DNA from: Clostridia bacterium
GTDB taxonomy: Bacteria > Bacillota > Clostridia > Christensenellales > Aristaeellaceae
DNA: 32,396 bases
NCBI GenBank assembly: GCA_017396845.1
Contig: JAFQKQ010000122.1
Span: 1-32,396, forward strand
Direction of reading: 5' to 3'
Shown: positions 5,024 to 30,462 of the stretch, piece by piece
Layout of the letters: every line of letters starts with the position of its first letter
Position numbering within the stretch: the stretch's first letter is position 1
Position numbers and translations under genes: made by a program
The notes under the pieces: generated by a model
What the model saw: only the letters and a program-made list of their open reading frames with translations
What the model was told of the DNA's origin: nothing
Database searches by the model: none

Positions 5024-5057
5024 AGTATGCACTTAAATGACAGCGGAGCGTGATTTT

Positions 5058-14475: not shown

Positions 14476-14865
14476 ATGTTCAAAATGAAACTGGAATTTA
14501 CTGAGAGCAACAAGGAGAATATGGAGGAAATCAACCGCATACTCGGTGCGGGCCGGTACGAAAGCGTTTCCATCGAGGATAACCAAGGCTGTCTTATAAC
14601 GGTACGAAATGGCGAAGGCGCGGTGATCGACCGTTTCTACGGCTTTGAAAATGTGACGTTTGCGCTTGAAAGTGCAGGCGACGGAAAGGGACATCATTAC
14701 CAGATGGACACGGCGGTGTTTGATATATGTGAATTCAACGGCACGGAGTTCAACCGCCTCTGGTCGAGCATGCACCCGGACAGGGTGATGCGCATAATGA
14801 TGGAGATTCAGTATGAAAGTGCGAATGCGAAGGCGTTCGTCGTGCTTCATATGGACAGGCGCTGA
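14476..14865 (+). CDS. Unknown small cytoplasmic protein
   Basis: A 129-residue soluble protein without signal peptide or membrane segment. It is acidic, with mixed alpha/beta character (MKLEFTES at the start, VVLHMDRR at the end). No family is recognised. ATG 14476 follows GAGGTGA (14464-14470) at 5 bases; the GTG at 14467 lies inside that ribosome site and is rejected. The coding pattern and clean start support a real gene. It ends 2 bases before a very strong bidirectional terminator. Confidence 0.75.
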   Translation: MFKMKLEFTESNKENMEEINRILGAGRYESVSIEDNQGCLITVRNGEGAVIDRFYGFENVTFALESAGDGKGHHYQMDTAVFDICEFNGTEFNRLWSSMHPDRVMRIMMEIQYESANAKAFVVLHMDRR

Positions 14866-14867
14866 GC

Positions 14868-14929
14868 AAAAAAAGCGGGCTCCTTCCGGATTTGCTGGAA
14901 TTTGCAAACCGGAAGGAGCCCGCTTTTTT
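14868..14929. terminator. Bidirectional terminator between converging genes
   Basis: A perfect 15-base stem (GCGGGCTCCTTCCGG, 14875-14889, with its complement at 14909-14923) is flanked by seven A on the left and six T on the right, so it works on both strands. It separates the plus-strand small gene from the minus-strand LacI gene. Confidence 0.95.
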
Positions 14930-14936
14930 ATGCGGA

Positions 14937-15959
14937 TTATCTTGCCGCGAGACTTAGGGAGCCTCGGAACATGACGCTTGACATGATGTAGCTTACTTCG
15001 CTCGGCGTATTCGGATAATCGATCAGGAAGAGTATGCGCTGAGCAAGTCTGCGCCCGATGGCATGCGTCTGAACATCGGTGGTGGTGATTTTTCCTGCTA
15101 CGCTTTCGAATTCCTGGCTGTTGTCAAAGCCGGTAAGCTCGAACCTCTCCGGAAGCAGGCGTTTGGTTTCGTTCAGATGATGCATAACGCACTGCGCCAC
15201 AAAGTCGCTGGCGCACACGAAGCCGTCCGGGATTTCGCTCATGTGATCGAGAAAATCGCCGATTTCCTCGCGGTAGCGGTTCATATTGATGGGTTTTACG
15301 AGGGAAAGGGCGGGATCGGGCTTGAAGCCGAGCGCCTGATGCGCACAGAGAAACCCCTGATACCGATCGGCATTTGTCTGCGCATAGTGCGGATCTCCGA
15401 TAAACCCCAGCCGTGTTCTCTTGGTCTCAAGCAGCCGCCTTGTGATTTCGCTCGTTGCGCTTAAGCCTTCCACCAGCACAAGATCTCCGTTCAGCCTTTG
15501 GAAGGGAACGCCCGGAACGGTGTCCAGAAATACCTTGGGCATGTTGAGCTGCGCAAGCTGCATAAGAAGCTTTTCGTCGTACACATTGAGTACAATGACG
15601 CCGGAAACGTTTTCGAAGGCCGCCGGCATGCGGTAATCGTCATGAGCGGCGCTCGGAAGGCAGGTATACATCAGATCCACATCGTGCCTGGCGAGCTCGA
15701 TTGCGATATTGTGGATGATGTTCATCCAGAATACGGACGATTCCATTCGCGCCACTGCTACGGAAACGCATTTTCTGTGCGGGTGCGGACTATGGGGTTC
15801 TCCTTGGGCTCTGTCGATGATGCCGGCTTCGCAGGCGCGGTCGAATATGCGCTTTCTAACCTCGTCCGACACGCCGGGGCGGTTGTTCAGCGCCTTCCAT
15901 ACGGTTGTCCGGGATACGCCCATCATGTCGGCAAGCTCCTGAATACGGATGTTGGCCAT
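14937..15959 (-). CDS. LacI-family transcriptional regulator
   Basis: A 340-residue repressor. Residues 1-50 form the LacI-type helix-turn-helix and hinge region (IRIQELADMMGVSRTTVWKALN, shown here in part, then RPGVSDEVRKRIFD). The rest is a periplasmic-binding-protein-like effector domain, for example GLSATSEITRRLLE, LGFIGDP and DGFVCASDFVAQ, ending near FRGSLSLAAR. The effector is probably a sugar or sugar phosphate. AGGAAAGGTG precedes ATG 15959 on the minus strand. It is the second gene of a minus-strand pair with the isomerase (47-base gap) and lies beside the divergent sugar-uptake cluster, which it most likely controls through the GAACCGGTTC palindrome. The neighbour relation supports this; it is not proven. 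Confidence 0.94.
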   Translation of the reverse strand: MANIRIQELADMMGVSRTTVWKALNNRPGVSDEVRKRIFDRACEAGIIDRAQGEPHSPHPHRKCVSVAVARMESSVFWMNIIHNIAIELARHDVDLMYTCLPSAAHDDYRMPAAFENVSGVIVLNVYDEKLLMQLAQLNMPKVFLDTVPGVPFQRLNGDLVLVEGLSATSEITRRLLETKRTRLGFIGDPHYAQTNADRYQGFLCAHQALGFKPDPALSLVKPINMNRYREEIGDFLDHMSEIPDGFVCASDFVAQCVMHHLNETKRLLPERFELTGFDNSQEFESVAGKITTTDVQTHAIGRRLAQRILFLIDYPNTPSEVSYIMSSVMFRGSLSLAAR

Positions 15960-16006: not shown

Positions 16007-16849
16007 TCAGACGAACTGACGGATGAACTTATGTGCGGCGCGAAGGGCGGAAAGGTTTTCTTCCATGCCTTCAAATTCATAGGAAACTACGCCTTCGTAA
16101 CCCGCGTTCCTGAGCGTCTCCAGGCAGATTCTGACCGGCACTGCGCCATGACCTGCAACCGTTCCGCGAAGGAAGGTGCCGTTTCTGGAGGTGAACCAGC
16201 CGTCGCCGGGATTGTCGGAGGTGGAGGGCTTTACGAGGAAATCCTTTACGTGTACGTGGAAGGCATATTTGGAAGCGATCGGAACGGCTCTTAAGGGATT
16301 GTCGTCCGCGCACAGGAAGTTGCCCATGTCGATCAGCCAGCCGTAGTTGGGATGGTTTACGGTGAGGATCAGCTCTTCAACGCGCTCTGCGTCCTGAAGA
16401 ATGTAGCCGTGGTTTTCGGTGCAGGTCTTAATGCCGAGGGTTGCGGCGTACTCGGTGACCTCGCGGATCATGGGAGCCATGATTTTCACGGCTTCGCGCC
16501 AGCTCATTCCCTCTTTGAGGCTCCAGCATGCATCGTGGCGAAGCACTTTCGCGCCCAGAATGGCGGCGATGTCGAGCTGCTTCTTTACGCGCTCCACTTC
16601 GTTTTCGCGGTTCAGGAAATCTGCGCCGATGGTGTATGCGGCGATGGGGAGGGAAAGAGAATCGGCGTAGGCGCGGATTTCTTTCGCCAGTGCTTCTACG
16701 GAATCCGCCTTCTGAACATCGGTCGAAAGATCGATAAATTCGATGGCGTCAAAGCCGATTTCCTTGGCGAGCTTCATGATGTCAAAGTAGTTAGCGCCCG
16801 TTGCGCGCATGTAGGGGGAAAAACTGTAGGAGGATACGCCAAGCTTCAT
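16007..16849 (-). CDS. Sugar phosphate isomerase/epimerase (TIM-barrel, AP-endonuclease-2-like fold)
   Basis: A 280-residue enzyme of the xylose-isomerase-like TIM-barrel superfamily. The predicted metal ligands are in place: Glu in TENHGY, Asp in WLIDMGN, His in HVHVKD and Glu in SYEFEG. Members isomerise or epimerise sugars, inositols and keto-sugars; the exact reaction cannot be read from sequence. ATG 16849 has AAAGGAG 9 bases upstream and gives the usual MKLGVSSYSF start; the GTG at 16873 is rejected. It is cotranscribed with the LacI gene from the promoter at 16994-17022 and probably processes the sugar brought in by the divergent transporters. Confidence 0.92.
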   Translation of the reverse strand: MKLGVSSYSFSPYMRATGANYFDIMKLAKEIGFDAIEFIDLSTDVQKADSVEALAKEIRAYADSLSLPIAAYTIGADFLNRENEVERVKKQLDIAAILGAKVLRHDACWSLKEGMSWREAVKIMAPMIREVTEYAATLGIKTCTENHGYILQDAERVEELILTVNHPNYGWLIDMGNFLCADDNPLRAVPIASKYAFHVHVKDFLVKPSTSDNPGDGWFTSRNGTFLRGTVAGHGAVPVRICLETLRNAGYEGVVSYEFEGMEENLSALRAAHKFIRQFV

Positions 16850-16884
16850 ATGAGATTGCTCCTTTCCATTCACATGTTCACTTA

Positions 16885-17169: not shown

Positions 17170-17197
17170 TTGACAAACAGGCGTATGCTGATATAAT
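17170..17197 (+). promoter_or_regulatory. Promoter of the sugar capture and uptake operon
   Basis: TTGACA (17170-17175), a 16-base spacer and TATAAT (17192-17197). Both boxes are perfect. Transcription would start near 17204, about 95 bases before the first start codon. Confidence 0.88.
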
Positions 17198-17248
17198 AAA
17201 GTTACTCAGAGAAGTTACGAATTTAGATAACATTCCGATAAGGCATGT

Positions 17249-17258
17249 GAACCGGTTC
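17249..17258. promoter_or_regulatory. Candidate LacI-family operator
   Basis: GAACCGGTTC is a perfect 10-bp palindrome with a central CG, the hallmark of LacI-family operators. It lies about 45 bases downstream of the predicted transcription start and before the ribosome site, where a bound repressor could block elongation. A LacI gene is about 1.3 kb away on the other side. Binding by that protein is inferred. Confidence 0.6.
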
Positions 17259-17297
17259 GTCTGAGAGGTTAACAAATTAAAGGAGGAAACGTGAACT

Positions 17298-18713
17298 ATG
17301 AAGAGACTGTTGACCTTGGTACTGGCAGTTGCCATGCTGCTGACCCTGGCGCCCGCAGCGTTCGCGCTCAATGAGAACGGCTATGATCTGCAGGGCAACA
17401 CTGTAATCATCCGCCTGTGGGATAACGTAAATCCCTATGCCGAGGATGTTACCGACGTTGACAAGGCCGAGTGGCTGCCCCGCTACGAAGCAATCAAGGA
17501 AGCTTATAACTGCGAATTCGAGTTCTATACCTCCACTTCCGAGTGGGATGATATGCCTGCTGAGTGGATTATGTCCGTATCCGGCGGAACTCCCGCCTGG
17601 CACGTAACCAACAACCTGTCCTCCATGTGGGCGATGAACCTGGCTGCCAACGGCGCGCTGGCCGACATCTCTGCCGGTCTTGCCGAGCTCGACATGCCCC
17701 AGCTGTTCAAGGATGCCGGCATGGTAGGCGACGCCCGCTACGGCTTCATCACCGGTTATCCGGGACCGGAAGGCCTCGTATTCAACCGCCAGATGATCCT
17801 CGACGCCGGCATGGAATATGATCCCGGCGAGATGTTCGCCATGGGCAAGTGGGATTACGAATCCTTCTACGCTTACATGGTAGAGCTTCAGAGCAAGCTC
17901 CCCGAAGGCCACTACGCCTTCTTCATCGATCCCAACTACTGGGGAATCTTCGCGCCTCCGGCCAACGGCGGACAGATGGCGGTACATTCCGACTTCACCA
18001 TCGGCCTGACCAGCGACGAGTACATCGAGACCTTCGAGCTTCTTGAGAAGCTGATCGCTGCCGGCTGCTGCCGTCCCGCGAACGTAACCGATTCCGGCGA
18101 TCCCGACTACTGGGGAACCCCGGCTGCCACCTTCGACGTAGGCGTTGAGGTTGCCATGACCCACCGTGCCGGCTGGCAGATGGGCGGCCTGAACTCTAAC
18201 GGTCTCGATTGGGGCTACGTACCCTATCCGTGGGGCAGCGGCACCACTCTGGCTGTTGAAGGCGACTACACCAGCCTCCAGAACTACTACGGCACCTACT
18301 ACGATCTGGGCCTCACCGGCGCAGTTCTTGAGGGCATCGAAGTTGCATACCCCGGCATGGAAGCCGAGTATGTTGAGAAGGCTCTCGTTAACCTGATCTA
18401 CGACCTGCTCTGGACCGAGGAAGCGAAGGCCGAAATCGCTGCCATGGCGAGCGAAGACTTCGTACTCGAGCCCGAAAGCCAGTTCGCCGACGAGCTGTCT
18501 GCCGAGCTCCACACCTGGGTAAAGATGCACACCAAGTTCAACCCCATCGCCAACCTGCAGAATGCCGGCCTCGGCAACAGCTACGGCGGAGAGGTAACGC
18601 TCTATGGTCTTACCCGCAAGCCCTTTGACGATGGAACTTCCGTACGCTCCACCTTCGAGGCGGCCGTTCCTGAGATCGAAGCCAGCTTCCGCGATGCAGG
18701 CTATATCGACTAA
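17298..18713 (+). CDS. Extracellular sugar-binding protein (family 1 solute-binding)
   Basis: A 471-residue exported binding protein for a CUT1-type ABC importer. Residues 1-23 are a signal peptide with an AFA cleavage site. There is no lipobox cysteine, unusual for a Gram-positive-type cell, so it may be released or held by another part. The mature protein is acidic and rich in aromatic residues (Trp and Tyr clusters such as DPDYWGTP and LQNYYGTYYDLG), as in oligosaccharide-binding proteins. AAGGAGG (17280-17286) precedes ATG 17298. Codon use is strongly biased (AAC, CTG, GTA), suggesting high expression. A stable hairpin follows, before the next gene. Which of the two permease pairs it serves is not clear. 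Confidence 0.88.
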   Translation: MKRLLTLVLAVAMLLTLAPAAFALNENGYDLQGNTVIIRLWDNVNPYAEDVTDVDKAEWLPRYEAIKEAYNCEFEFYTSTSEWDDMPAEWIMSVSGGTPAWHVTNNLSSMWAMNLAANGALADISAGLAELDMPQLFKDAGMVGDARYGFITGYPGPEGLVFNRQMILDAGMEYDPGEMFAMGKWDYESFYAYMVELQSKLPEGHYAFFIDPNYWGIFAPPANGGQMAVHSDFTIGLTSDEYIETFELLEKLIAAGCCRPANVTDSGDPDYWGTPAATFDVGVEVAMTHRAGWQMGGLNSNGLDWGYVPYPWGSGTTLAVEGDYTSLQNYYGTYYDLGLTGAVLEGIEVAYPGMEAEYVEKALVNLIYDLLWTEEAKAEIAAMASEDFVLEPESQFADELSAELHTWVKMHTKFNPIANLQNAGLGNSYGGEVTLYGLTRKPFDDGTSVRSTFEAAVPEIEASFRDAGYID

Positions 18714-18736
18714 TTCCTACGCGCACCTGAATATAC

Positions 18737-18764
18737 CGCGAGACGCCGTAAAAGGCGTCTCGCG
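18737..18764 (+). promoter_or_regulatory. Intercistronic hairpin after the first binding-protein gene
   Basis: A perfect 11-base stem (CGCGAGACGCC, 18737-18747, with 18754-18764) encloses GTAAAA. No T run follows, so it is probably not a full terminator. Such hairpins after binding-protein genes protect the upstream mRNA and lower downstream expression, which would fit the need for excess binding protein. Confidence 0.7.
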
Positions 18765-18813
18765 TAGCATGTTTTATGGATAACAATATTTCAATCGAAA
18801 GACGGGGGACGAG

Positions 18814-21681
18814 ATGGCGAAACGCTGGATAGTATTCATCATTGCTTTGCTGGTATTGGCGGCGGCGCCCGTGCTGGCAGAGGGTTATGAAGCGTACAGT
18901 ATACAGCATGCTTCAGCGCCGTACGCCAAGGGGGATATCGTAATTCAGGCATCTGAGTTCACATCTTCCGACATGAAGGATGCGTCCGTCTTGGAAGACG
19001 GAACGCTTCTGACGGGAGAAACGGGATATGTGGAGTATGCCTTTGAAGTACCGGAAGATGCGCTTTACACGATCACCTTCCGCTATTTTCCCGGCGAAGG
19101 AAGCGGCGGAGACATTTTAAGAGCCATATACATCAACGGTCAGCTGCCCTTTGAAGAAGCGGCGGAGCTGACGTTTTCGCGTATGTGGAACGATTCCAAC
19201 AGGAATTACAAGCAGGCGAAGGGAAATCAGCCCTTCCCCTCTCAGGTTCAGACGCCCGAATGGCGTGATTACACTCTGAGTGATTCGCAGGGCTATATTG
19301 CCGGCGATTTCAGCTTTTTCCTTCCTGCGGGCGCAAACACGCTTCGCATTCAATCATTGAACGAGGGTCTGATTTTGGACACGATCACTCTTTCCGCGCC
19401 CAAAGAGATCCCCACCTACGAAGATTATATTACTTCTCTTCTTGAAAAAGGAGCGAAGTATTCCGATATGGAAGCGGTGAAATATCAGGCGGAGGACGCG
19501 GCGCTGAAGTCCGGCCCCAGCTTCTATCCTGTAAACGACCGCACGTCGCCCAAGAGCGAACCGTATCATCCGTCCAATATTGTGCTGAACTGTATTGGAG
19601 ACACCGCGTGGAACGAACCGGGCGAATGGATCGCCTGGGACGTAGAAGCGCCGGAAGACGGGCTCTACCGCGTCGTCCTCCGCTTTAAGCAGAGCGATCT
19701 TCGCGGATTGTACGCGACGAGAAAGTTCACCATCGACGGCGCCGTTCCCTTCAAAGAGGCGGCCGACCTGAGATTCTACCACAGCGGCAAGTTCCAGGTG
19801 GAGCCGCTCAGGAGCAGCCGCACGGATCCGACCGATAAAAAGGAAGAAACGGTCGAATTCTGGTTCTACATGGAAAAGGGCACGCACAGAATTTCGCTCG
19901 AAGTAACCCTGGGTGAAATCGGCGCGATTCTTAAGGATATTGACGAGCAGACCGCGCTCCTCAATAACCTGTACCGTCAGGTAATTGCAATTACCGGTAC
20001 GCAGCCCGATACCTACCAGAGCTACCAGCTGTTTACCCGTGTTCCCGAGCTTAAGCAGAGCATTACGGACAGAAAGGCCGATGTAGAGGATATTCTCGAG
20101 CGCCTGACCGCGCTGACCGGCTCCGGCAGCGAGCGCACGGCTGCGCTTACCCGCCTTCTTTCCATGATGGACGAACTGATCGAATCTGAGGATCAGTGGC
20201 CCAAGCGCCTCTCCGCATTCAAAGAGTGCATTACCGCCATGGGTAAGGCCGTGCTCGATTTCAAGGATCAGCCGATGAAGATTGACTACATTCTTCTGGT
20301 TGGTCAGGAAGAGCTCGACATCCGTCCCGACGGCAATTTCTTTGAGCGCATCTGGCACATGATCCGCGCGTTCTTCGGAAGCTTCTTTAACGATTACAAC
20401 GTAGGCGACAGCGCCATCGACAGCTCCGCCAAGGAGATCGACGTATGGCTCTCCACCGGCCGCGACCAGTTCGAGGTCATTCGCCGCCTGATCAACGAGA
20501 GCTTCGAAGACCAGACGGGCATTAAGGTCAACCTGCGCCTGATCAACGCGGACGTGCTTCTGCCCTCTACCTTCACCGGAAACGGTCCGGACGTTGCAAT
20601 TCAGATCGGCAACACCGCGCCTGTCAACTTTGCCTTCCGCGGCGCGGCGCTCGATCTTAAGCAATTCAGCGATTACGAAAAAGTAATCAAGAACTTCCTG
20701 CCGGCGGCAATGGAGTCGTTCTATTATGAAGGCGGCTGCTACGCGCTTCCCGATCAGATGAGCTTCCCGGTACTGTTCTACAGAACGGACATTCTGAACG
20801 AACTCAATCTGAAGGTTCCCGAGACCTGGGAGGATCTGGTCGCGATGATTCCCGAGCTTCAGAGATACAACATGGAGCTCTACCTCGACACCAACCCGCC
20901 CGCCACCATGGGCGCAAGCCTCTCGATGGGTTCCTCCGTTCCGATCAACACCGTATTCCTCTCCAGGCTCTATCAGACCGGAGGCAACCTGTACTCGGAA
21001 GACGGAACCGAATGCCTGCTCAACGAAGAAGCGGCAAATACCGCATTTAAGTGGTGGACGCAGTTCTACACGCAGCACGGCTTCCCGCGCGATATTGACT
21101 TTGTCACGCGCTTCCGCCTGGGCGAAGTTCCCATCGGCGTAGTCGACCTTTCCACCTATACCCGCCTTGCCGTATCCGCGCCTGAAATTCGCGGCGTATG
21201 GGGCATCGCACAGGTGCCGGGTTCCCGCGCGGCAGACGGCTCCGTCGTTCGTTCCACGCCCTGCGTGACCGGCGGCGCGATGATCATCAAGAACGCGGTT
21301 GAACTCAACGATACGAAGGAAGAAAGCTGGGAGTTCATCAAGTGGTGGACCAGCGGCGACACCCAGACCCGCTACGCGCTTGAAATGGAAGCGGTTCTCG
21401 GTCAGGCCGGCAGATACCTGGTTGCCAACCTCGATTCATTCGAGACGGTTGAATGGCCGCTTGAAACCAAGCAGGTTTTGAACGACGCGCTTACCACCCT
21501 TCGCGGAATTCCGCAGATCCCCGGCGGATACATCACCGGACGCTACCTGAACAACGCGTTCGTGACCGTTATCACCAATTACGAGAACGCAGCCGATACC
21601 CTGTACGAAAGCGTCGAACTGATCAACGAAGAAATCGACGCCAAGCGCAAGGAATTCGGACTGGACGAAATTAAAGAGTAG
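18814..21681 (+). CDS. Fusion of two carbohydrate-binding-like modules with a solute-binding domain
   Basis: A 955-residue exported protein. Residues 1-22 are a signal peptide (PVLA cleavage). Two related beta-sandwich modules follow at about 38-193 and 220-373; each has GYVEYAFEVPEDALY or EWIAWDVEAPEDGLY, an I-N/D-G turn with PF, and a late AGANTLRI or KGTHRISL strand, as in CBM6/CBM35-type modules. A helical spacer (about 375-535) leads to a family 1 solute-binding domain (about 541-945; GPDVAIQIGN, RGAALDLKQF, MIPELQRYNMELY). The layout suggests a binding protein that docks on a glycan while delivering oligosaccharide to the permeases. No lipobox cysteine is seen. The ribosome site is GGGGGAC. 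It is the first gene after the hairpin and is followed 17 bases later by permease genes. Ligand unknown. Confidence 0.87.
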   Translation: MAKRWIVFIIALLVLAAAPVLAEGYEAYSIQHASAPYAKGDIVIQASEFTSSDMKDASVLEDGTLLTGETGYVEYAFEVPEDALYTITFRYFPGEGSGGDILRAIYINGQLPFEEAAELTFSRMWNDSNRNYKQAKGNQPFPSQVQTPEWRDYTLSDSQGYIAGDFSFFLPAGANTLRIQSLNEGLILDTITLSAPKEIPTYEDYITSLLEKGAKYSDMEAVKYQAEDAALKSGPSFYPVNDRTSPKSEPYHPSNIVLNCIGDTAWNEPGEWIAWDVEAPEDGLYRVVLRFKQSDLRGLYATRKFTIDGAVPFKEAADLRFYHSGKFQVEPLRSSRTDPTDKKEETVEFWFYMEKGTHRISLEVTLGEIGAILKDIDEQTALLNNLYRQVIAITGTQPDTYQSYQLFTRVPELKQSITDRKADVEDILERLTALTGSGSERTAALTRLLSMMDELIESEDQWPKRLSAFKECITAMGKAVLDFKDQPMKIDYILLVGQEELDIRPDGNFFERIWHMIRAFFGSFFNDYNVGDSAIDSSAKEIDVWLSTGRDQFEVIRRLINESFEDQTGIKVNLRLINADVLLPSTFTGNGPDVAIQIGNTAPVNFAFRGAALDLKQFSDYEKVIKNFLPAAMESFYYEGGCYALPDQMSFPVLFYRTDILNELNLKVPETWEDLVAMIPELQRYNMELYLDTNPPATMGASLSMGSSVPINTVFLSRLYQTGGNLYSEDGTECLLNEEAANTAFKWWTQFYTQHGFPRDIDFVTRFRLGEVPIGVVDLSTYTRLAVSAPEIRGVWGIAQVPGSRAADGSVVRSTPCVTGGAMIIKNAVELNDTKEESWEFIKWWTSGDTQTRYALEMEAVLGQAGRYLVANLDSFETVEWPLETKQVLNDALTTLRGIPQIPGGYITGRYLNNAFVTVITNYENAADTLYESVELINEEIDAKRKEFGLDEIKE

Positions 21682-21698
21682 AGGAGGGAGAGGCGAAA

Positions 21699-22631
21699 AT
21701 GGCAAAGAAGGCAAAACCGGAACACTATATTTCGAAGTTCGAATATGGCCTTAAGCAGGCGAAGCGCTATCGTCTTTTGTACGTTATGCTCCTTCCCTAC
21801 ATGCTCTGCTTTACCGCGTTCACCATCATCCCGGTAGTAGTTTCGATCTTCTTCAGCTTTACGCAGTTCAACGTACTGCAGCCGCCGGAGTTGATCGGCT
21901 TTGAGAACTACATTCGTCTGTTCCTGGACGACCCGATCTTCCTGAAGTCCGTAAAGAACACGCTGCTCCTCGCCGTCATCATCGGCCCCTTCGGCTATCT
22001 GTTCTCCTTCCTGATGGCATGGCTTCTGTGCGAGCTTCCGCCGAAACTGCGCACGGTTCTTACGGTTATCTTCTACGCGCCTTCCATCTCCGGAAACGCC
22101 TACGTAATCTTTACTCAGCTGTTTTCCGGCGACGCGTACGGCTTCGTCAACTCCCGCCTTCTGAATCTGGGCATCATCACCGAGCCCATTTTGTGGCTGA
22201 GAGATGAAAAGTACATGATGCTGATCGTCATACTCGTATCCATCTGGATGAGCCTTGGCGTAGGCTTCCTGTCCTTCATCGCAGGTCTTCAGGGCGTTGA
22301 CCGCGCGCAGTACGAAGCGGCCGAAGTCGACGGCGTTAAGAACCGCTGGCAGGAGCTTTGGTACATCACGCTTCCCAACATGATTCCGCAGCTGCTCTTC
22401 GGCGCGGTCATGGCGGTTACGAACGCTTTGGCGGTAGCGGATGTAACGGTAGCCCTGAACGGCTTCCCGTCCACGAACTACGCGACGCATACCATCATCA
22501 ACCATTTGAACGATTACGGAATCATACGTCTGGAAATGGGCTATGCCTGTTCAATAGCCGTTTTGCTGTTCTTCATGATGCTCTTCATCAACAAGGCGGT
22601 ACAGCGTATGTTAGAAAAGGTGGGCACGTAA
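21699..22631 (+). CDS. Sugar ABC transporter permease, MalF-type (pair A)
   Basis: A 310-residue integral membrane protein with six predicted helices. The EAA loop that contacts the ATPase is present as YEAAEVDGVKNRWQELWYIT. It belongs to the CUT1 branch of the binding-protein-dependent permeases. AGGAGGGAGAGG precedes ATG 21699. It directly abuts the next permease gene (stop, then ATG) and follows the CBM-like/binding-protein fusion by 17 bases, so that fusion is its most likely binding partner. No ATPase gene lies in the cluster. Confidence 0.94.
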   Translation: MAKKAKPEHYISKFEYGLKQAKRYRLLYVMLLPYMLCFTAFTIIPVVVSIFFSFTQFNVLQPPELIGFENYIRLFLDDPIFLKSVKNTLLLAVIIGPFGYLFSFLMAWLLCELPPKLRTVLTVIFYAPSISGNAYVIFTQLFSGDAYGFVNSRLLNLGIITEPILWLRDEKYMMLIVILVSIWMSLGVGFLSFIAGLQGVDRAQYEAAEVDGVKNRWQELWYITLPNMIPQLLFGAVMAVTNALAVADVTVALNGFPSTNYATHTIINHLNDYGIIRLEMGYACSIAVLLFFMMLFINKAVQRMLEKVGT

Positions 22632-23585
22632 ATGAAAAAGCAGAAGCTCACGAAGAATCAGAAAAAGATGCAGCGCCTTCAGAAGCAGGCGCTCAAGGGA
22701 CAGAAAAAGATTTATCATTCCAAGTTTGCAAGAATGATGACCAACAGCCGCTCCAACCGCTCCTTAAGCGGAAGCATCGTGCTTCTGGCGTGCCTGTTTG
22801 CACTGTCTCTGGTTATGCTCTTCCCGGTTGTATTCATGATCTCAAATGCATTCAAGCCCATCAACGAGCTGTTCATTTTCCCGCCGAAGCTGTTTGTTAT
22901 TCAGCCTACGCTGGACAACTTCCATGACCTGAATGAACTCCTCGCCGATTCGCTGGTGCCGTTCTCAAGGTACATCTTCAATACGCTCTTTATCGTTATC
23001 TTCGGCGCTATCGGGCACATCGTTCTGGCTTCCATGGCGGCATTCCCGCTTTCGAAGTTCAAGTTCCCCGGCAGCAAGCTGATGAGTGAAATGGTTGTCA
23101 TGTCGCTTATGTTCTCCAGCGCGGTTACCGCGGTTCCGAACTATGTGATCATGAGCTATCTGGGCCTGGTAGACAGCTACTGGTCCGTGATTCTGCCCGC
23201 GCTTTCGATGTCTCTGGGTCTGTTCCTGATGAAGAACTTCATGGAGCAGGTTCCCACTGCCTTGATTGACGCGGCCTCCATCGATGGAGCGAACTACTTT
23301 ACCATGCTGTGGAGGATCATCATGCCGGCGGTTAAGCCCGCATGGATTACGCTGTTCATTGTGTCGTTCCAGTCCCTTTGGGGAGCGACCGGTGCGAACT
23401 TCATCTACACGGAGAACATCAAGCCCCTGCCCGCCATGCTTTCTCAGCTGACCGGCTCCGGCGTTGCGAGAACGGGCGTTGTTGCCGCGACCTCGCTGCT
23501 CATGTTCATCGTGCCTGTAATCCTGTTTGTGATTTCACAGTCCAACGTACTGGAGACCATGGCGACCTCCGGTATTAAAGAGTGA
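22632..23585 (+). CDS. Sugar ABC transporter permease, MalG-type (pair A)
   Basis: A 317-residue membrane protein. A long, very basic N-terminal tail (about 45 residues, rich in Lys, Gln and Arg) precedes six predicted helices. The EAA loop reads IDAASIDGANYFTMLWRIIM. It pairs with the MalF-type protein encoded immediately upstream with no spacer. The ribosome site AGGTGGG lies inside the end of that gene. The ending MATSGIKE is shorter than the usual GAVKG-type C-terminus. Confidence 0.94.
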   Translation: MKKQKLTKNQKKMQRLQKQALKGQKKIYHSKFARMMTNSRSNRSLSGSIVLLACLFALSLVMLFPVVFMISNAFKPINELFIFPPKLFVIQPTLDNFHDLNELLADSLVPFSRYIFNTLFIVIFGAIGHIVLASMAAFPLSKFKFPGSKLMSEMVVMSLMFSSAVTAVPNYVIMSYLGLVDSYWSVILPALSMSLGLFLMKNFMEQVPTALIDAASIDGANYFTMLWRIIMPAVKPAWITLFIVSFQSLWGATGANFIYTENIKPLPAMLSQLTGSGVARTGVVAATSLLMFIVPVILFVISQSNVLETMATSGIKE

Positions 23586-23597
23586 GGAGGGTGAATC

Positions 23598-25052
23598 TTG
23601 ACGAAGCGATTGATTTGCCTGCTCCTGGCGCTGATGACGCTGTTCTCCTGCGCATTGGCGGACGGACGAAACGGAAGCAGCAATTACCTGTACACGCCGT
23701 ATGAGGAGATCATTCCTGCGCCGCCTGCATATACGCTGAAGTATTCGCTCACGGCAAGGGATTATCCCGAGATTGATTCGCTGGACAACCTGGTGGATAT
23801 CTACGTGGATGACGATGCGGTTTATATTCTCTGTGCAAAGCGCCTTCTGGTGCTCGAAATGGATCTTTCCCTTCGGAAGGTCCTGACCGGCTACAAGGAC
23901 GCGGAAGGAAACGAGGTTGCTCTTGACGGATGCAGCGGCATCACTGTAACGCCTGAAAAGGAAATCTACATTACGCAAAGCGAAAAATCTCAGATCCTCA
24001 ACTTCAATCCCGATTACTCGCTTAAGCGCGTAATGGGCCGTCCCGAAATCATCGGTTATGACAACGTGAAATACCGCCCGACCAAGATGGTCGTAGACGC
24101 GGCCGGACGCCTCTACGTAATTTCGAAGGGAATGTACGAGGGCATTCTGGAGCTGAATGCGGACGGTACCTTCACCCGCTTCTTTGGTGTAAACGAAGTT
24201 ACCTTCACGCCCTGGCAGCTGTTCTGGCGCATGTTCGCAACGAAGGAGCAGCGCGCAAGACAGTCTCTGTGGCTCCCGAGCGACTTTACCAACCTTTGCA
24301 TCGACCAGGACGGCTTCCTGTTCGCCACTCTCATGGCGGATGATGAGATGACGGTCAAGCGCCTGAACGCGAAGGGCCAGAACATCATCAAGGTGGACGC
24401 CGAAAAGCCCTATCCGCAAGGAGATCTGTGGACGAACGAATCGGGCTTTGGTATTCCCACCGGAAAAAGCCAGTTCATCGCTGTTGATGTAAACGATTTC
24501 GGCGCATATGTGTGCCTGGATTCCACCCGTTCCCGCGTGTTCTGCTATAACGAAGATCACAGCCTGCTCTTCATTTTCGGCGGCCCGGGCGACCGCGAAG
24601 GCTACTTCCGCAATCCTGTGGATGTAAGCTTTGTGGGCGAGTACATCGTGGTTCTGGATGCGCTTGCGCAGTCCATCGAAGTGTTTGCGCCTACGCAGTA
24701 CGGTAAGGTTCTGATGAACGCCGTAAAGCATCAGTATCTCTACGAGTACGATGTGGCCGCGAAGTACTGGGAGGAAGCGCTCACGTACAATCACAACCTC
24801 ACGCTCGCATACTCCGGCGTAGGCAGAATGCTGCTCCGCTCGGGCGAGGAAGAGGAAGCGATGGAATATCTTAAGATGGGCGACGATCGAAAGTACTACG
24901 ATAAAGCCTATGAAAAGGTGCGCACTGCAACCCTGCGCGAATACTTCGTGCCCGGTATCTGCGTGCTTCTGGGGCTGATTGCACTCAGGATCGTATATAA
25001 GGTCGTTAAGAAGATCGTAAAAAACAAGAGAAAGGATCGTGCAAGGATATGA
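23598..25052 (+). CDS. Membrane-anchored NHL-type beta-propeller and TPR protein
   Basis: A 484-residue protein starting at TTG 23598, supported by GAGGAGGG just upstream. A signal peptide (about 1-21; LFSC could also serve as an imperfect lipobox) leads to six or so NHL-like blades (about 60-380), for example SGITVTPEKEIYITQ, PTKMVVDAAGRLYVIS and FRNPVDVSFVGEYIVVLD. Next come a TPR-like helical pair (YWEEALTYNHNLTLAYSGVG, about 385-440), one membrane helix (about 448-466) and a basic cytoplasmic tail. The propeller would sit outside the cell. NHL propellers bind proteins, RNA or glycans. Its place between two permease pairs suggests a scaffold or sensor for the uptake machinery; this is inference. 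It overlaps the next gene by 4 bases (ATGA). Confidence 0.85.
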   Translation: MTKRLICLLLALMTLFSCALADGRNGSSNYLYTPYEEIIPAPPAYTLKYSLTARDYPEIDSLDNLVDIYVDDDAVYILCAKRLLVLEMDLSLRKVLTGYKDAEGNEVALDGCSGITVTPEKEIYITQSEKSQILNFNPDYSLKRVMGRPEIIGYDNVKYRPTKMVVDAAGRLYVISKGMYEGILELNADGTFTRFFGVNEVTFTPWQLFWRMFATKEQRARQSLWLPSDFTNLCIDQDGFLFATLMADDEMTVKRLNAKGQNIIKVDAEKPYPQGDLWTNESGFGIPTGKSQFIAVDVNDFGAYVCLDSTRSRVFCYNEDHSLLFIFGGPGDREGYFRNPVDVSFVGEYIVVLDALAQSIEVFAPTQYGKVLMNAVKHQYLYEYDVAAKYWEEALTYNHNLTLAYSGVGRMLLRSGEEEEAMEYLKMGDDRKYYDKAYEKVRTATLREYFVPGICVLLGLIALRIVYKVVKKIVKNKRKDRARI

Positions 25053-25714
25053 CGCAGGTAACGGAACGCGTAAAGCATGCGGCGAAATGGCTGTACGGGA
25101 ATTTCTGGTTTTTTCCGACAAAGATCCTGATGCGCCCCTTCAAGAGCTTTGATCAGCTGAAATTCGAGAAGAAGGGAAGCTATGCTTTCGCCTTTTTCGT
25201 ACTGATCCTGGAAGCTCTAATCAGCATCATGAACTTTGTTTACAAGGGATTCCTCATCAATTATGAGGACATCTATCAGGTGAACAGTCTCTACCTCATA
25301 CTGACCGTACTTTTCCCGGTTGTTCTCTTCGTAGTTGGCAACTGGTGCGTGACGACGCTGATGAACGGCAAGGGCAAGCTTGGCGAAATCTTCCAGGTGA
25401 CGATGTACGCCATGTTCCCGATGTGCATTCTGCAGCTTGTGGCGCTTTTCCTGAGCAACGTACTAATTCTGGACGAAATGACCTTCGTCTACGCGCTTCA
25501 GACGATCGGCGCAGTGCTGCTGGCTGTGTACGGCTTCATCGGCCTTACTGTTATTCATGAGTACGGTCTGGGTCAGTGCATTGCGGCGCTGCTTCTCACG
25601 GTCGCTGCAATGATGATACTGGTATTCATACTGATGCTGGTATTCGCGCTGGTCGCCGACGTATGGGATTTCGTAACCGTTGTCAGCAAGGAACTGATGC
25701 TGAAATACTTCTAA
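25049..25714 (+). CDS. YIP1-family-like integral membrane protein
   Basis: A 221-residue protein with five hydrophobic segments after a soluble N-terminal stretch of about 45 residues that includes LMRPFKSFDQLKFEKKGSY, a start typical of YIP1-type proteins (the RPF..F motif before the first helix). The function of bacterial YIP1 proteins is not established. It is translationally coupled to the propeller gene (ATGA overlap), and the order propeller, YIP1, DUF5696-like protein and permeases suggests one membrane assembly. Confidence 0.82.
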   Translation: MTQVTERVKHAAKWLYGNFWFFPTKILMRPFKSFDQLKFEKKGSYAFAFFVLILEALISIMNFVYKGFLINYEDIYQVNSLYLILTVLFPVVLFVVGNWCVTTLMNGKGKLGEIFQVTMYAMFPMCILQLVALFLSNVLILDEMTFVYALQTIGAVLLAVYGFIGLTVIHEYGLGQCIAALLLTVAAMMILVFILMLVFALVADVWDFVTVVSKELMLKYF

Positions 25715-25743
25715 AGAACGCAGATTCGGAAAGGAGGCGCAAC

Positions 25744-28227
25744 ATGCGCAGAATGATTTCGGTCATCCTCCTGGCGATTGTGCTGATGAACGCCATCAGC
25801 GCATGCGCATACGAAATGCGTGTTGAGGATGAAGGATTCACATTGATTGCCGAAAACGGCTCCAAGGCGCTTCTGATGGACGAAGAAACGCTTCAGCTGC
25901 GTTGGGTTGATCTCGCCACGGGCAAAACGTGGGATACCAGCGTAATGAACGGACAATCGGGCAACAGAACGATCAAGAGCCTTCAGAAGGCGGCGCTTCA
26001 GGTAACGTTTATCGTAAACGCCCAGAACGCCACCACCACCAACATGGACAGCTACACCTATTCCGTTCAGACCGAGGGCTTTGAGTGGCGCAAGATTGAT
26101 AACGGCGTTGAAATCGATTACACCATCGGCGACGACGCATACATCATCGACGACCTGCCCAAGGGCATTCGCGTAGACCGCTATCAGGCGCTGGCAGATG
26201 GCGCGGGCTGGTCGACGACCGAAGCGAAGGAATTCAGGGATAATTACCGCGCCGTAAAGATGGAAGGTCTGGATCAAGAGTACATGATCCGCGTAAAGGA
26301 TGATTCCCTGAGCGCGCTTCAGATCAAGAAGTTGTACAATGTCATCTTCTCAAGCGGTATCTACACCCAGGAGCACATGGAAGAGGACAACGCGACTGTG
26401 GGATATGTAAGAGAGTATTCTCCGGAAGTCAAGGTTACCGTTCGCTATCAGCTGGACGGCGACGATCTCCTCTTCACAATCCCCTGCGCTGAGATTGCCA
26501 ATACGCCCGATAACGAATTGGTATCCATCAGTGCGCTGCCGTATTTCCTGTCCGCCGACAATACACAGGAAGGTTTCATCTTCGTGCCCGATGGTTCCGG
26601 TGCGCTGATCAACCTGAATAACGGCAAGCTTTCCTCTACCGCATACTCCATGCGCGTATACGGAAACGATGTGCTTGTAAACAGCGACGATTATGTATCC
26701 GAACGCGACGACATTGCGCTTCCGGTATACGGCATCAAGCGCACCGATTCCGCCATGCTCGCCATCATTGAAGAGGGCGAGGAGATTGCTTCGATTTACG
26801 CCAACATCTCCGGCCGCAGCGACGAGTTCAACCGCGTTTCCACCGATTTCCTGATCAGGGAAATTGAGAACGTGGCGCTCGCAGGAAATGAGAGCGTTAC
26901 CTCTCCCCGTTATTCGACCGATGTATATCAGGGCAATATCACGCTCAGATATAAGTGGCTGATCGAAGAGGACAGCGATTACGTCGATATGGCGAAGACG
27001 TATCGCGAGTATCTCGTTGGAAACGGCCTGCTCGTAAACAACGAAGCGGACGAAGACGCAGCTTTCTATATGGAAGTTGTGGGCGCCGCCAACAAGAACA
27101 AGTTCTTCCTCGGAATTCCCTATCAGTCGACCGTTCAGGCCACCACCATTTCGGAAGCAGATATCATTTACGATCTGGCGCGCGCACACGACGTGAAGAA
27201 TATCAAAATGATCTATACGGGTCTGTTTGACGGCGGAATCAAGAATTCCTCCCTCACGCGCCTGACGCTTGATAAGGATATCGGCTCTGAAAAGGAACTC
27301 AGGGAGCTCATGGAGAAGCTCGATGAAAACGGCGATATGCTCTATCCCGGTGTATACTTCGGCAGAGTGTATACCGACCGCGCCTTTAAGCCGCTCAGCG
27401 ATGCGGCGAGAAAGCACGACGGCGATCCCGCACAGGCATACGTGTTCGGCGAGCCCGTGTTAAAGCGCGCGAGAACCGAGCATGAGGGCTACTACGTTTC
27501 TCCGTTCTACCTTCCCGAGTACACCGAGAAGGCAATGGATGAATTCGAAGATCTGGGTGTGAAGGGTCTCAATCTTTTCGATCTTGGCAATACCCTCACG
27601 GGCGACCATAAGAGAAAAGAAAACCTGAGCCGCATTCATGCAACGCCGGTATTCGAGAACGCGCTTGAAACGCTCTCGGGCGAATACGAACTGATTCTGG
27701 ACACGCCGCTTCTGTATGCGTTCAGGTACGCCTCCGGCGCAACCAACCTGCTCCGCGGCGACAACGGCTTCGCCATCACCGATGCATCGATCCCGTTTGT
27801 TCAGTGGGTGCTCGACGGCAGCATGTCTTATTCCGGTGAAAGCTGGAATGCATACAGCTATCTGGGCTATCAGGAGCAGCTGCTCTGGGCGCTGGAAAGC
27901 AAGTCCAGCCCGCGCTTCACCTTCATGTGGGAGGATCCGTCGATCTTCGCCAACACCGCCGACGTCGACTACATGTCGAACTACTCCTCCAATTACTCTC
28001 AGGTAATGGATGAGGCATGTGCGCTGTACGAAGAATACAACGCATTCTACCGGAAGGTGAAGGACGCCAAGGTAGAACAGTATGAGATTTACTCCGTATC
28101 CCTTCGCAAGGTTGTCTACGATAATGGCGTAACGCTGTATGTAAACTACCTGGATACCGACCAGACTGCGGACGGAATCAAGGTTCCCGCGCTGGGATAC
28201 TATGTCGGAGAGGGGGATGAAGCATGA
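25744..28227 (+). CDS. Large secreted DUF5696-like protein, possible glycoside hydrolase
   Basis: An 827-residue exported protein. The signal peptide ends in ISAC, a good lipobox, so Cys21 may carry a lipid anchor. Residues about 25-330 are beta-rich (FTLIAENGSKALLMDEETLQ, DNGVEIDYTI) and resemble a galactose-mutarotase-like sandwich. About 400-740 alternates strands and helices like a TIM barrel (NIKMIYTGLFDGG, DENGDMLYPGVYFGR, GVKGLNLFDLGN, TPLLYAFRYASG, FTFMWEDPS). The end is a small beta domain (VVYDNGVTLYVNYLD). This order is seen in several glycosidase clans, and the protein resembles the DUF5696 family found beside such transporters. Activity is inferred; candidate acids are the Asp and Glu residues in the barrel motifs. 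ATG 25744 follows AAGGAGG at 6 bases; the longer frame from 25576 overlaps the YIP1-like gene and is rejected. Confidence 0.82.
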   Translation: MRRMISVILLAIVLMNAISACAYEMRVEDEGFTLIAENGSKALLMDEETLQLRWVDLATGKTWDTSVMNGQSGNRTIKSLQKAALQVTFIVNAQNATTTNMDSYTYSVQTEGFEWRKIDNGVEIDYTIGDDAYIIDDLPKGIRVDRYQALADGAGWSTTEAKEFRDNYRAVKMEGLDQEYMIRVKDDSLSALQIKKLYNVIFSSGIYTQEHMEEDNATVGYVREYSPEVKVTVRYQLDGDDLLFTIPCAEIANTPDNELVSISALPYFLSADNTQEGFIFVPDGSGALINLNNGKLSSTAYSMRVYGNDVLVNSDDYVSERDDIALPVYGIKRTDSAMLAIIEEGEEIASIYANISGRSDEFNRVSTDFLIREIENVALAGNESVTSPRYSTDVYQGNITLRYKWLIEEDSDYVDMAKTYREYLVGNGLLVNNEADEDAAFYMEVVGAANKNKFFLGIPYQSTVQATTISEADIIYDLARAHDVKNIKMIYTGLFDGGIKNSSLTRLTLDKDIGSEKELRELMEKLDENGDMLYPGVYFGRVYTDRAFKPLSDAARKHDGDPAQAYVFGEPVLKRARTEHEGYYVSPFYLPEYTEKAMDEFEDLGVKGLNLFDLGNTLTGDHKRKENLSRIHATPVFENALETLSGEYELILDTPLLYAFRYASGATNLLRGDNGFAITDASIPFVQWVLDGSMSYSGESWNAYSYLGYQEQLLWALESKSSPRFTFMWEDPSIFANTADVDYMSNYSSNYSQVMDEACALYEEYNAFYRKVKDAKVEQYEIYSVSLRKVVYDNGVTLYVNYLDTDQTADGIKVPALGYYVGEGDEA

Positions 28228-29156
28228 GTAATGGAGCGTTGGAAACGCGCGCGCCCAAAGAGCGCAGAAGAGGCTGGTATTACCGGCTGGGCTTCCCGAA
28301 AAAGAGGGCGCTGTGGGGAATTATCTTCCTGCTGCCGTGGATTCTTGGCTTTTTCCTTATGTTCTTGACTCCGATGATTGAAATGATCATCTACAGCTTC
28401 AACGATGTAGGAATCGTTGCCACCGGCGGCGTTTCAAAGGAATTTGTCAAGTTTGACAACTTCCATCAGGCGCTGCTTGTCGATGCGACGTTTGTGCCGA
28501 GCGTAGTTGAAACGCTGTTTGAGGCGGTTCTGTTTACGCCTCTGATCATCATCTTCTCTCTGATGTGCGCAATCCTGTTGAACGGCAAGTTCCGCGGCCG
28601 CGCAGTCGCACGCGCGATCTTCTTCATCCCGATCATCATGGCTACCGGCCTTATGATGGAGCGCGTTACCAACCTGTCCGGTCAGATGCTGGGCGAGGGT
28701 CAGGGCGACAACGTGTATGGCGCAGAATCCATTGCGCGCCTCGTCATGTCGATCGGTATCGGCAAGGAGCTCGTGCAGTATCTGCTGGATGCGGTGAACG
28801 ACATCTTTGAGATCGCTTCTATGAGCGGTATCCAGATTCTGATCTTCCTTGCGGCGCTTCAGGGAATTTCCCCGGCGCTGTACGAGGTAGCCAAGATCGA
28901 AGGTGCAACGCCTTATGAAACCTTCTGGAAGGTAACCGTTGTAATGGTAAGCCCGATGATTCTTACCTGTACGATTTACACGCTTGCCGACCTTTTCATG
29001 AGAAGCGAGATCGTGGATCTGGTATATACCATTAGCTTCAGACAGTCCCATTACGGACTGGGCGCTGCAATGAGCTGCGTATACATTCTGGTCAATGTTA
29101 TCGTAATCGGCGCAGCTGCCGGACTGATTCGGAAGGTGGTGTTCTACTATGATTAA
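28224..29156 (+). CDS. Sugar ABC transporter permease, MalF-type (pair B)
   Basis: A 310-residue membrane protein with six predicted helices after a basic N-terminus. The EAA loop reads YEVAKIEGATPYETFWKVTV. It overlaps the DUF5696-like gene by 4 bases (ATGA), so it is translationally coupled to it. It differs clearly from the pair A MalF-type protein in sequence, with a longer loop between helices (around NLSGQMLGEGQGDNVYG), so the pairs are not a recent duplication. Confidence 0.94.
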   Translation: MSNGALETRAPKERRRGWYYRLGFPKKRALWGIIFLLPWILGFFLMFLTPMIEMIIYSFNDVGIVATGGVSKEFVKFDNFHQALLVDATFVPSVVETLFEAVLFTPLIIIFSLMCAILLNGKFRGRAVARAIFFIPIIMATGLMMERVTNLSGQMLGEGQGDNVYGAESIARLVMSIGIGKELVQYLLDAVNDIFEIASMSGIQILIFLAALQGISPALYEVAKIEGATPYETFWKVTVVMVSPMILTCTIYTLADLFMRSEIVDLVYTISFRQSHYGLGAAMSCVYILVNVIVIGAAAGLIRKVVFYYD

Positions 29157-30144
29157 GAAGAGAAAGTACGAGCATATGGCGAAACCCTCCCTTCAGAAGA
29201 GGCTTAAGTCATTTGTCACCGGCGCATTCCGCTACCTTCTGATCGTATGTCTTTCCTACCTGATTCTTGCACCGATACTGATTAACCTGTCCACGGCGTT
29301 TACCAATCCGCGCGACTTGGCGTTCCCGTCTTCAATGTGGATTCCTGCAAGATTCTCCATTGAAAACTGGCATGTCAGCGGACTGATGCTGAATTACGGC
29401 AAATCCCTTCCTTATACGCTCGGATTTACCGCAATCATCTGCCTTTTGCAGACGGCAAGCGCTGTAATGGCCGGCTATACGTTTGCAAGACTTAAGTTCC
29501 CCGGAAGAAACATACTGTTTGCGCTGGCGATTTTCACCATCGTCGTTCCGCCGCAGATGTTCATGCTTCCGCAGTATCTGTTCTTCAAGGAATTTGATAT
29601 CCTTGGAATCTTCAGAGCCATTACCGGGAAACCGATTAACCTTCTGGGCTCCAGCATTTCTCTTTTCATACTGAATGCCTTCGGTATGGGTCTTAAGAGC
29701 GGTCTGTACATCTACATCTTCCGTCAGACCTTCCGCGCCCTGCCCAAGGAGCTGGAAGAAGCCGCGTACATCGACGGCGCAGGCTTCCTGAGAACGTTTG
29801 TGAGCATCGTGCTTCCCTCCGCGGGCGCCGGTATCCTCACTGTTGCGGTTCTCAGCTATGTATGGTCCTGGAACGATCCGTACTACGTACAGCTGTTTGA
29901 CAATACCAATGTCAACTTCCTGATGCTGGCCTTCAATAAGGCTACCGGCTCCGTAGACGAAGCGCTCGCCAGTATCTCCTCGAAGGTTCCCGTTACCTAT
30001 GCATTCCTTCTCAAGAACCCGGTATACGAAAGCGCCATCGCCAAGACGGCTGCGCTGCTCGTATTCCTGCCGCTGGTTGGTCTGTACATGATCGTACAGC
30101 GCAAGTTCGTTCAGGGCGTTGAGAGAAGCGGTATTGTAGGCTAA
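29149..30144 (+). CDS. Sugar ABC transporter permease, MalG-type (pair B)
   Basis: A 331-residue membrane protein. The EAA loop reads LEEAAYIDGAGFLRTFVSIV, and the C-terminus FVQGVERSGIVG is the classic MalG-type ending, which contacts the ATPase. It overlaps its MalF-type partner by 8 bases. It is the last gene of the uptake run and is followed by a double-hairpin terminator. Confidence 0.95.
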   Translation: MIKKRKYEHMAKPSLQKRLKSFVTGAFRYLLIVCLSYLILAPILINLSTAFTNPRDLAFPSSMWIPARFSIENWHVSGLMLNYGKSLPYTLGFTAIICLLQTASAVMAGYTFARLKFPGRNILFALAIFTIVVPPQMFMLPQYLFFKEFDILGIFRAITGKPINLLGSSISLFILNAFGMGLKSGLYIYIFRQTFRALPKELEEAAYIDGAGFLRTFVSIVLPSAGAGILTVAVLSYVWSWNDPYYVQLFDNTNVNFLMLAFNKATGSVDEALASISSKVPVTYAFLLKNPVYESAIAKTAALLVFLPLVGLYMIVQRKFVQGVERSGIVG

Positions 30145-30160
30145 TGAATTGAAACCGTTA

Positions 30161-30229
30161 CATCCGGGAAGCGTTCCCGGATGCATACCGAAAAACTCCC
30201 GGATCCATTTTGGATTTCGGGGGTTTTTC
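30161..30229 (+). terminator. Terminator of the sugar uptake operon
   Basis: There are two hairpins. The first has arms CATCCGGGAA and TTCCCGGATG (30161-30183). The second pairs CTCCCGGATCC with GGATTTCGGGGG and ends in five T (about 30196-30229). Confidence 0.85.
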
Positions 30230-30250: not shown

Positions 30251-30279
30251 TTGACAGACGGCGCCTGCTGAAGTATAAT
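30251..30279 (+). promoter_or_regulatory. Perfect consensus sigma-A promoter
   Basis: TTGACA (30251-30256), exactly 17 bases, then TATAAT (30274-30279). Every position matches the consensus, so strong transcription is expected from about 30286. Confidence 0.92.
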
Positions 30280-30306
30280 TCATAAAAACACAGGAGGATG
30301 CATGCT

Positions 30307-30405
30307 ATGTACGTTCATTACAACGGTATGAATATGCGGTTCGTTTCCGAAGCGATGGCTTGGCACGGAAACGGGCTCGCATTTGCGTACCGAAAAAAGG
30401 CGTAG
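30307..30405 (+). CDS. Mini-ORF of 32 codons, small protein or leader peptide
   Basis: AGGAGG (30292-30297) lies 9 bases before ATG 30307. The 32-residue product begins MYVHYNGMNMRFVSEAM, is rich in Tyr, Met and His, and ends in the basic YRKKA. A perfect promoter is just upstream and a terminator just downstream (30429-30462). The next gene is a methyltransferase. It could be a stand-alone small protein or a leader peptide that controls readthrough into the methyltransferase. ATG 30298 is in frame but overlaps the ribosome site. No homologue comes to mind. Confidence 0.6.
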   Translation: MYVHYNGMNMRFVSEAMAWHGNGLAFAYRKKA

Positions 30406-30428
30406 AGCATGTTTTTTTCGATAGCAAA

Positions 30429-30462
30429 GTGCGGGCGCAGTGATTGCGGCCCGCGCTTTTTT
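30429..30462 (+). terminator. Terminator or attenuator between the mini-ORF and the methyltransferase
   Basis: The outer stem GTGCGGGC/GCCCGCGC (30429-30436 with 30449-30456) has an inner GCA/TGC pair and is followed by six T (30457-30462). It lies between the strong promoter and the methyltransferase start, and I see no second promoter after it. Confidence 0.82.

Follow-up and report, generated by a model that had tools for sequence, protein, structure and literature searches.

The 32,396-nucleotide contig JAFQKQ010000122.1 of a Clostridia bacterium (assembly GCA_017396845.1), analysed over its full length and referred to here as the window, carries an operon of nine genes whose order is conserved among relatives across Bacillota. 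We propose, with a probability of about 0.58, that these genes encode one substrate-adaptable glycan-uptake chassis made of two halves. Half A would consist of SBP2, a solute-binding protein (SBP) with two modules resembling carbohydrate-binding modules (CBMs), and the permeases A1 and A2; half B would comprise a second binding protein, SBP1, the permeases B1 and B2, a surface-anchored DUF5696 protein with the fold of glycoside hydrolase (GH) family 129, and the NHL-YIP1 pair. We infer this joint function from the operon layout, the synteny, the fusion of NHL with YIP1, the protein folds, the absence of the beta4 Asp from some DUF5696 proteins and the variable enzyme neighbours.

Gene order was compared across 133 pooled loci, each with a distinct DUF5696 protein. 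They were the window, 32 of 34 loci of relatives (L051 and L052 were left out as copies of L070 and L074), 80 loci from a contig scan and 20 loci from 15 further families. The contig scan confirmed at least 547 relatives, and the best 80 kept, from Paenibacillus, Cohnella, Lachnospiraceae, Defluviitaleaceae, Oscillospiraceae and others, are those nearest to the query and not a random sample. Five pairs of DUF5696 proteins are near-identical (at least 95%; among L084/L102, L088/L089/L164 and L131/L137). The four loci L066-L069 were left out, as their DUF5696 matches were weak and partial and no NHL, YIP1 or DUF5696 hit was found at them. NHL and YIP1 lie directly upstream of DUF5696 in all 122 testable loci, B1-B2 directly downstream in all 123 testable loci, and SBP2-A1-A2 precede NHL, YIP1 and DUF5696 in 101/114 loci; the original prediction had offered conserved order across Bacillota as its own check, and it passed decisively. 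The 20 loci from further families, which were not used in building the profile hidden Markov models (these were built from the window, relatives' and scan loci), gave the same arrangement, with NHL and YIP1 directly upstream in 20/20 and B1-B2 directly downstream in 19/19 testable cases; one of them, L164, has a DUF5696 99% identical to that of L088, a locus used in model building. The 13 exceptions to the half-A order comprise A2 split into two open reading frames (ORFs; L071 and L170), a second A permease missing from its place with the rest in order (L054, L056 and L060), SBP2 placed after B2 (L171, L174, L175 and L179) and no half A seen (L134, L165, L166 and L167). Behind a moved SBP2, A1 and A2 follow in L182 and L183, A2 alone in L180, and neither was resolved in L181. 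In 71 of 88 loci a second SBP-type gene is found close to the cassette.

The two halves also keep company across genomes. Among 60 genomes, the window's own included, DUF5696 was found in 30 at E<=0.001, in 26 above the family cut-off and in 22 at E<=1e-100; the NHL profile matches the same 22 genomes, and SBP2 is present in all of them and additionally in genome G016. In the phylum-wide scan DUF5696 occurs at E<=1e-40 in 37 of 398 genomes, own included, an assignment to Bacillota that rests on named relatives; up to three candidates were scored per genome, so that copy numbers are lower bounds. SBP2 was found in 28/28 of the DUF5696-positive phylum genomes searched, which are 28 of the 36 positives other than our own. 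Two genomes (G099 and G121) hold half B without visible half A (L165 and L167) and half A alone (L189 and L193) beside two-half loci, of which L194 is complete and L186-L188 and L190-L192 run in order to the end of the stretch or contig. The halves are separable yet keep company. The sole exception to the co-occurrence of SBP2 and DUF5696 among the 60 genomes is L197 (G016:C12), a 759 aa SBP2-like ORF with no A1/A2 or DUF5696 match in 19 kb.

In the window all nine genes lie on the + strand with intergenic gaps of 0-100 bases or short overlaps (Table 1), as the original prediction had placed them. The strong promoter that it had also named matches the sigma-70 consensus at 12/12 positions, and similar TTGACA/TATAAT pairs, read from the sequence, precede SBP1 in the same-genus orthologs L070 and L074. 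The claim of a single operon ending in a terminator holds, the terminator being a strong fold (z -5.0) that was missing from the pattern-scan list; it is corrected in one point by an internal stem-loop in the 100-base gap between SBP1 and SBP2, because of which SBP1 may be expressed above the remaining operon genes. A palindrome between promoter and SBP1 is a candidate LacI operator; near matches to it (up to two mismatches) were no more frequent in the window than by chance, and no similar palindrome was found in the same-genus orthologs.

Table 1. Positions of the operon, its signals and the divergent genes in the window.
Feature	Position	Strand	Basis
Sigma-70 promoter, TTGACA-16-TATAAT	17170..17197	+	12/12 consensus match
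Palindrome with CG centre, candidate LacI operator	17249..17258	.	Exact 12-mer occurs once in window
SBP1, stand-alone solute-binding-type secreted protein	17298..18713	+	N-terminal hydrophobic stretch 4-22
Stem-loop of 11 pairs without U-tract, between SBP1 and SBP2	18737..18764	+	RNA folding
SBP2: two CBM35/6-like domains, helical bundle, oligosaccharide-binding SBP domain	18814..21681	+	
Permease A1	21699..22631	+	BPD_transp_1, EAA motif
Permease A2	22632..23585	+	BPD_transp_1, EAA motif
NHL-type propeller, TPR-like stretch, C-terminal membrane helix 445-463	23598..25052	+	Sequence reading
YIP1 domain membrane protein, five predicted helices	25049..25714	+	PF04893
DUF5696, secreted GH129/GH101-fold protein	25744..28227	+	PF18952
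Permease B1	28224..29156	+	EAA motif; Pfam score below cut-off
Permease B2	29149..30144	+	BPD_transp_1, EAA motif
Rho-independent terminator	30190..30229	+	Folding
LacI-family regulator	14937..15959	-	Pfam
Xylose-isomerase-like TIM barrel protein	16007..16873	-	PF01261

Carbohydrate ATP-binding cassette (ABC) importers of the CUT1 type combine an SBP with two EAA-loop permeases and share an MsmX/MalK-type ATPase that is encoded elsewhere. All four permeases of the operon have EAA coupling loops, B1 scoring 23.4 bits against BPD_transp_1, below the cut-off of 26.4. Pfam names SBP_bac_1/8 in the C-terminal part of SBP2, which is the oligosaccharide-type SBP of a CUT1 importer. For the N-terminal part, profile matches to PDB chains bearing CBM35/6 are weak (best E 7e-7), the CBM35 cut-off of Pfam was not reached and no CBM match was found in the window's SBP2 at E<=0.1; CBM_35 matches 16 of 39 SBP2 family members at that threshold, and a fold search with SBP2 returned a list filled by the SBP domain, so that the N-terminal domains were barely probed. 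With these weak matches and the four EAA loops, the claim of a polymer-type binding protein and two importers is consistent. SBP1 gave no Pfam match (E<=0.001) and no PDB match. Four EAA loops require an ATPase; in the window a single ABC ATPase was found (570-3197), which forms a fusion with an FtsX-type permease, and two MalK-type (OB_MalK) ATPases encoded elsewhere in the genome are candidates for driving both permease pairs. Counting the window's FtsX fusion, 6 of 135 loci were found to hold ABC ATPase ORFs. At L065 a CUT1-type ATPase gene (4490-5743; 352 bits) adjoins the cassette, the only one so close among the 135 loci.

The YIP1 protein matches PF04893 at 49.4 bits (cut-off 28.6). For NHL no Pfam match was found at E<=0.001 and a single weak NCBIfam match to an NHL-type model was obtained (E 1e-4); its propeller and TPR-like stretch were read from sequence and alignment, and it has an N-terminal hydrophobic stretch besides the C-terminal membrane helix. 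The two are fused into one protein in 39 of 122 loci and separate in 83, which suggests that NHL and YIP1 act together. In five fusions that were examined, two helices are followed by four or five more that belong to the YIP1 part.

The window's DUF5696 matches PF18952 at 545.8 bits (cut-off 25.6; profile positions 2-612). It also matches active GH129 and DagB-type enzymes over its full length, with the three-domain fold of the GH129/GH101 type; GH129 (PF11308) was neither one of the two Pfam families matched by the window protein nor among the 25 families shown of the 34 matched by 54 members at E<=1. The window copy keeps the acids D613, D653 and D680. D613 was placed, without superposition, as the beta4 Asp, the nucleophile of GH129/GH101-type enzymes, from its position after strand 608-611 in the model and from the 17-residue distance that separates it from R630; this spacing equals the Asp-Arg spacing of EngBF in the alignment, the aligned EngBF Asp being, we presume, the catalytic one. 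The beta4 Asp is present in 102 of 133 members and absent in 31, an acid at position 680 is present in 114, both are present in 92, and the acids at 613 and 680 are both absent in 9. Trimming of the polymer outside the cell, as the original prediction suggested, may occur: the glycosidase fold and the window's acids would allow it, and the 31 members without the beta4 Asp speak against it. At 653-655, where the acid/base Glu of beta5 would be expected, a placement that is tentative given the weak hhalign alignment to GH101 (one global setting aligned the C-terminal end alone, 0.1%; the other setting aligned the barrel, 1%), the window reads D-T-P, an Asp and no Glu; the beta4 Asp is accompanied by a Glu at 653-655 in 11/133 members and by any D/E at 652-655 in 34/133, window included. 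GH129 homologs for residue mapping were sought in 299 phylum genomes by a search that matched nothing anywhere, and one GH101 was found in 398. The window's genome holds a second, divergent eight-gene core (L044, G000:C54), whose DUF5696 is 26% identical to that of the window and has Glu at the likely beta5 position.

The genes flanking the cassette make glycan uptake a very likely function, judged from their predicted families, and they differ by clade. Many cassettes lie with GH26, GH130 and GH113. In a tree of 114 DUF5696 proteins built by a quick method, 32 of 43 scan loci of a 46-row clade hold a member of beta-mannan-type clusters, and the window falls in a 21-row clade whose loci carry, each at some loci, GH29, BNR sialidase-like, NanE-ROK, sulfatase, GH2, GH3, GH123 and GH130 proteins. 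Examples include a sialidase-like BNR protein at L071, a GH29 fucosidase at L071 and L072, beta-galactosidase, sulfatase, NanE-ROK and fucosidase at L079, GH10 at L182 and GH106 at L167, and same-genus loci carry GH43, esterase and TIM-barrel isomerase. The first downstream same-strand ORF of at least 200 aa that is neither cassette nor SBP was scanned at 83 of the 84 loci possessing one (L128 was left out); among the 25 commonest of 70 families, the list is led by CBM65 (11), GH26 (10), DUF624 (6), CBM35 (5) and GH130 (4). Because these neighbours vary by clade, the chassis appears to be reused with different glycans, and the claim of one dedicated substrate does not hold for the whole system; the broader picture of a glycan-capture machine retains the conserved order, the carbohydrate-active enzyme (CAZyme) neighbours and the two importers. 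No CAZyme besides the GH-fold DUF5696 was found among the 19 window ORFs scanned, and with it no GH gene of the kind that belongs to a Gram-positive polysaccharide utilization locus (PUL); the original prediction had noted the lack of a standard cytoplasmic glycosidase. A single substrate for the window was rejected, since the neighbours of its relatives give no one answer. A host-mucin reading of the whole system was likewise dropped in view of plant-glycan-type neighbours at 38 of 76 loci with flanking ORFs, counted as members of GH26, GH130, GH113, GH2-mannosidase or GH5 clusters (single-linkage, one representative of each checked with Pfam); GH130 and GH2-mannosidase are also compatible with N-glycans, and five of the 38 loci belong to the window's own clade (L080, L084, L086, L090 and L102).

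In the chassis that we propose, SBP2 would hold glycan chains at the wall, and the DUF5696 barrel would bind chain ends beside B1/B2, cleaving them in some members and perhaps in that of the window. NHL would form an extracellular propeller, tied through its TPR-like stretch and membrane helix to the five-helix YIP1 protein, and the pair may serve as a gate or a scaffold. Energy for both permease pairs would come from a shared MsmX-type ATPase whose gene lies elsewhere. A bolder version, which we put forward tentatively and think doubtful, takes all nine proteins as one monoderm cell-surface uptake complex comparable in function to SusCD. In it a glycosidase that is often dead would act as glycan receptor, NHL-YIP1 as gate, and the two ABC permease pairs as importers of the products of whichever glycan the neighbouring enzymes cut.

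Several observations weigh against the two-half chassis. The scan loci are the nearest 80; the halves can be separate units (L134, L165, L166 and L167 without half A in view, L189 and L193 with half A alone); and no second SBP is in view at 17/88 loci. The window's own substrate is unsupported, with no CAZyme besides DUF5696, and the neighbours of its relatives point apart, towards GH43 and esterase in the same genus and GH29 and sialidase-like proteins in nearer relatives. Finally, with the acids at 613, 653 and 680 kept, the window's DUF5696 may simply be an enzyme, which raises the corresponding alternative and lowers our confidence in the chassis; a dead-enzyme reading of this copy was dropped on the same residues. 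That alternative, unlikely in our estimate, takes DUF5696 as an exo-glycosidase that is active outside the cell, represents a new GH family and works with two ordinary importers, and NHL-YIP1 as an unrelated membrane accessory. It draws on the full-length match to active enzymes and on the frequent retention of the beta4 Asp and the 680 acid, alone and together, with a further acid at 652-655 in the window among others; two Asp residues paired at beta4 and beta6 would be compatible with a GH31/36-like mechanism. It is at odds with the 31 otherwise ordered cassettes lacking the beta4 Asp, with the nine members lacking both acids and with the rarity of a Glu at 653-655 beside the beta4 Asp, and a single specificity misfits neighbours as varied as mannan, xylan and sialylated glycans.

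The importers could instead be independent, serving different products of one glycan and linked by co-regulation alone with no shared complex, an explanation that we regard as possible and rather unlikely. Each half is equipped with a permease pair and, in most cases, an SBP of its own, the two lie apart at some loci, and LacI with one promoter would be enough for co-regulation; yet NHL-YIP1-DUF5696 stand with B1-B2 wherever testable, and SBP2 accompanies DUF5696 in every positive genome tested in both samples (28/28 and 22/22). There is little chance, in our view, that NHL-YIP1 and DUF5696 form a sensing system that reports extracellular glycan to the cell, with the importers as ordinary partners. 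The absence of the beta4 Asp from some DUF5696 members and a membrane-anchored propeller with a TPR-like stretch would suit such a role. Domain searches of the nine proteins at E<=0.001 speak against it, having returned no kinase, sigma or regulatory domain, SBP1 and NHL being without any Pfam match.

The LacI regulator and isomerase were both found on the - strand, divergent from the operon as had been claimed. A LacI-type gene adjoins the cassette also in the same-genus loci L051 and L052, and a PF01261 protein lies near LacI at the same-genus locus L152. Behind LacI, a very strong hairpin with a U-run (14850-14940, - strand; z -9.5) probably terminates the divergent unit. The stretch 30251-30460, immediately after the operon terminator, holds a 12/12 promoter match, then a short ORF of some 32 codons starting at 30309, and a possible hairpin. 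Elsewhere in the window, Pfam names both FeoA and FeoB domains in one protein (6771-9050, - strand), and a protein with five bacterial SH3 stretches (3382-4953) lies behind the large ABC ATPase-FtsX fusion.

The conserved core is apparently undescribed: its parts are of known kinds, and their combination and the partial loss of catalytic residues are new relative to the literature searched. Among open-licence PMC papers, none was found on DUF5696, and nothing on the cassette in those on YIP1 with ABC or solute-binding proteins, on GH129/GH101 with Paenibacillus or on CBM35-SBP fusions; the excerpts of such papers on Gram-positive PULs do not name the DUF5696/NHL/YIP1 cassette, and those of one known mannan-locus paper contain no mention of YIP1, DUF or permease. 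DUF5696 occurs in about one in eleven sampled phylum genomes, always in the core where testable and beside enzymes for mannan, xylan and other glycans, and the near-same order across gut, soil and other Bacillota makes the cassette look like a general machine for complex-sugar uptake. If the nine genes do form one machine, they would suggest, in a form open to testing, how wall-bound Gram-positive bacteria get hold of complex glycans ahead of import. They would also offer a function for DUF5696 and bacterial YIP1 proteins, and a marker by which glycan-uptake loci could be recognized in uncultured gut genomes.

Like CUT1 importers, the cassette has an SBP, two EAA-loop permeases and candidate ATPases encoded elsewhere; unlike them, it has two permease pairs per operon, a CBM-fused SBP and three non-ABC proteins in fixed order. 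The Roseburia beta-mannan loci (PMC6385246) are an example of Gram-positive PULs. Similarly to such PULs, a LacI regulator, importer and GH genes stand together (GH26, GH130 and GH113 at many cassettes); the cassette differs in that its fixed core recurs with varying sets of enzymes. DUF5696 differs from the GH129, DagB (ZgGH129) and GH101 glycosidases in lacking the beta4 Asp in part of the family (31/133), in the rarity of a Glu at the likely beta5 acid/base position and in being encoded within an importer cassette wherever testable. The SusCD-type uptake systems of Bacteroidota likewise reuse a fixed core with varying enzymes and combine surface binding with import; the cassette shares this logic, but it has no TonB or outer membrane and employs ABC-type permeases and unrelated proteins.

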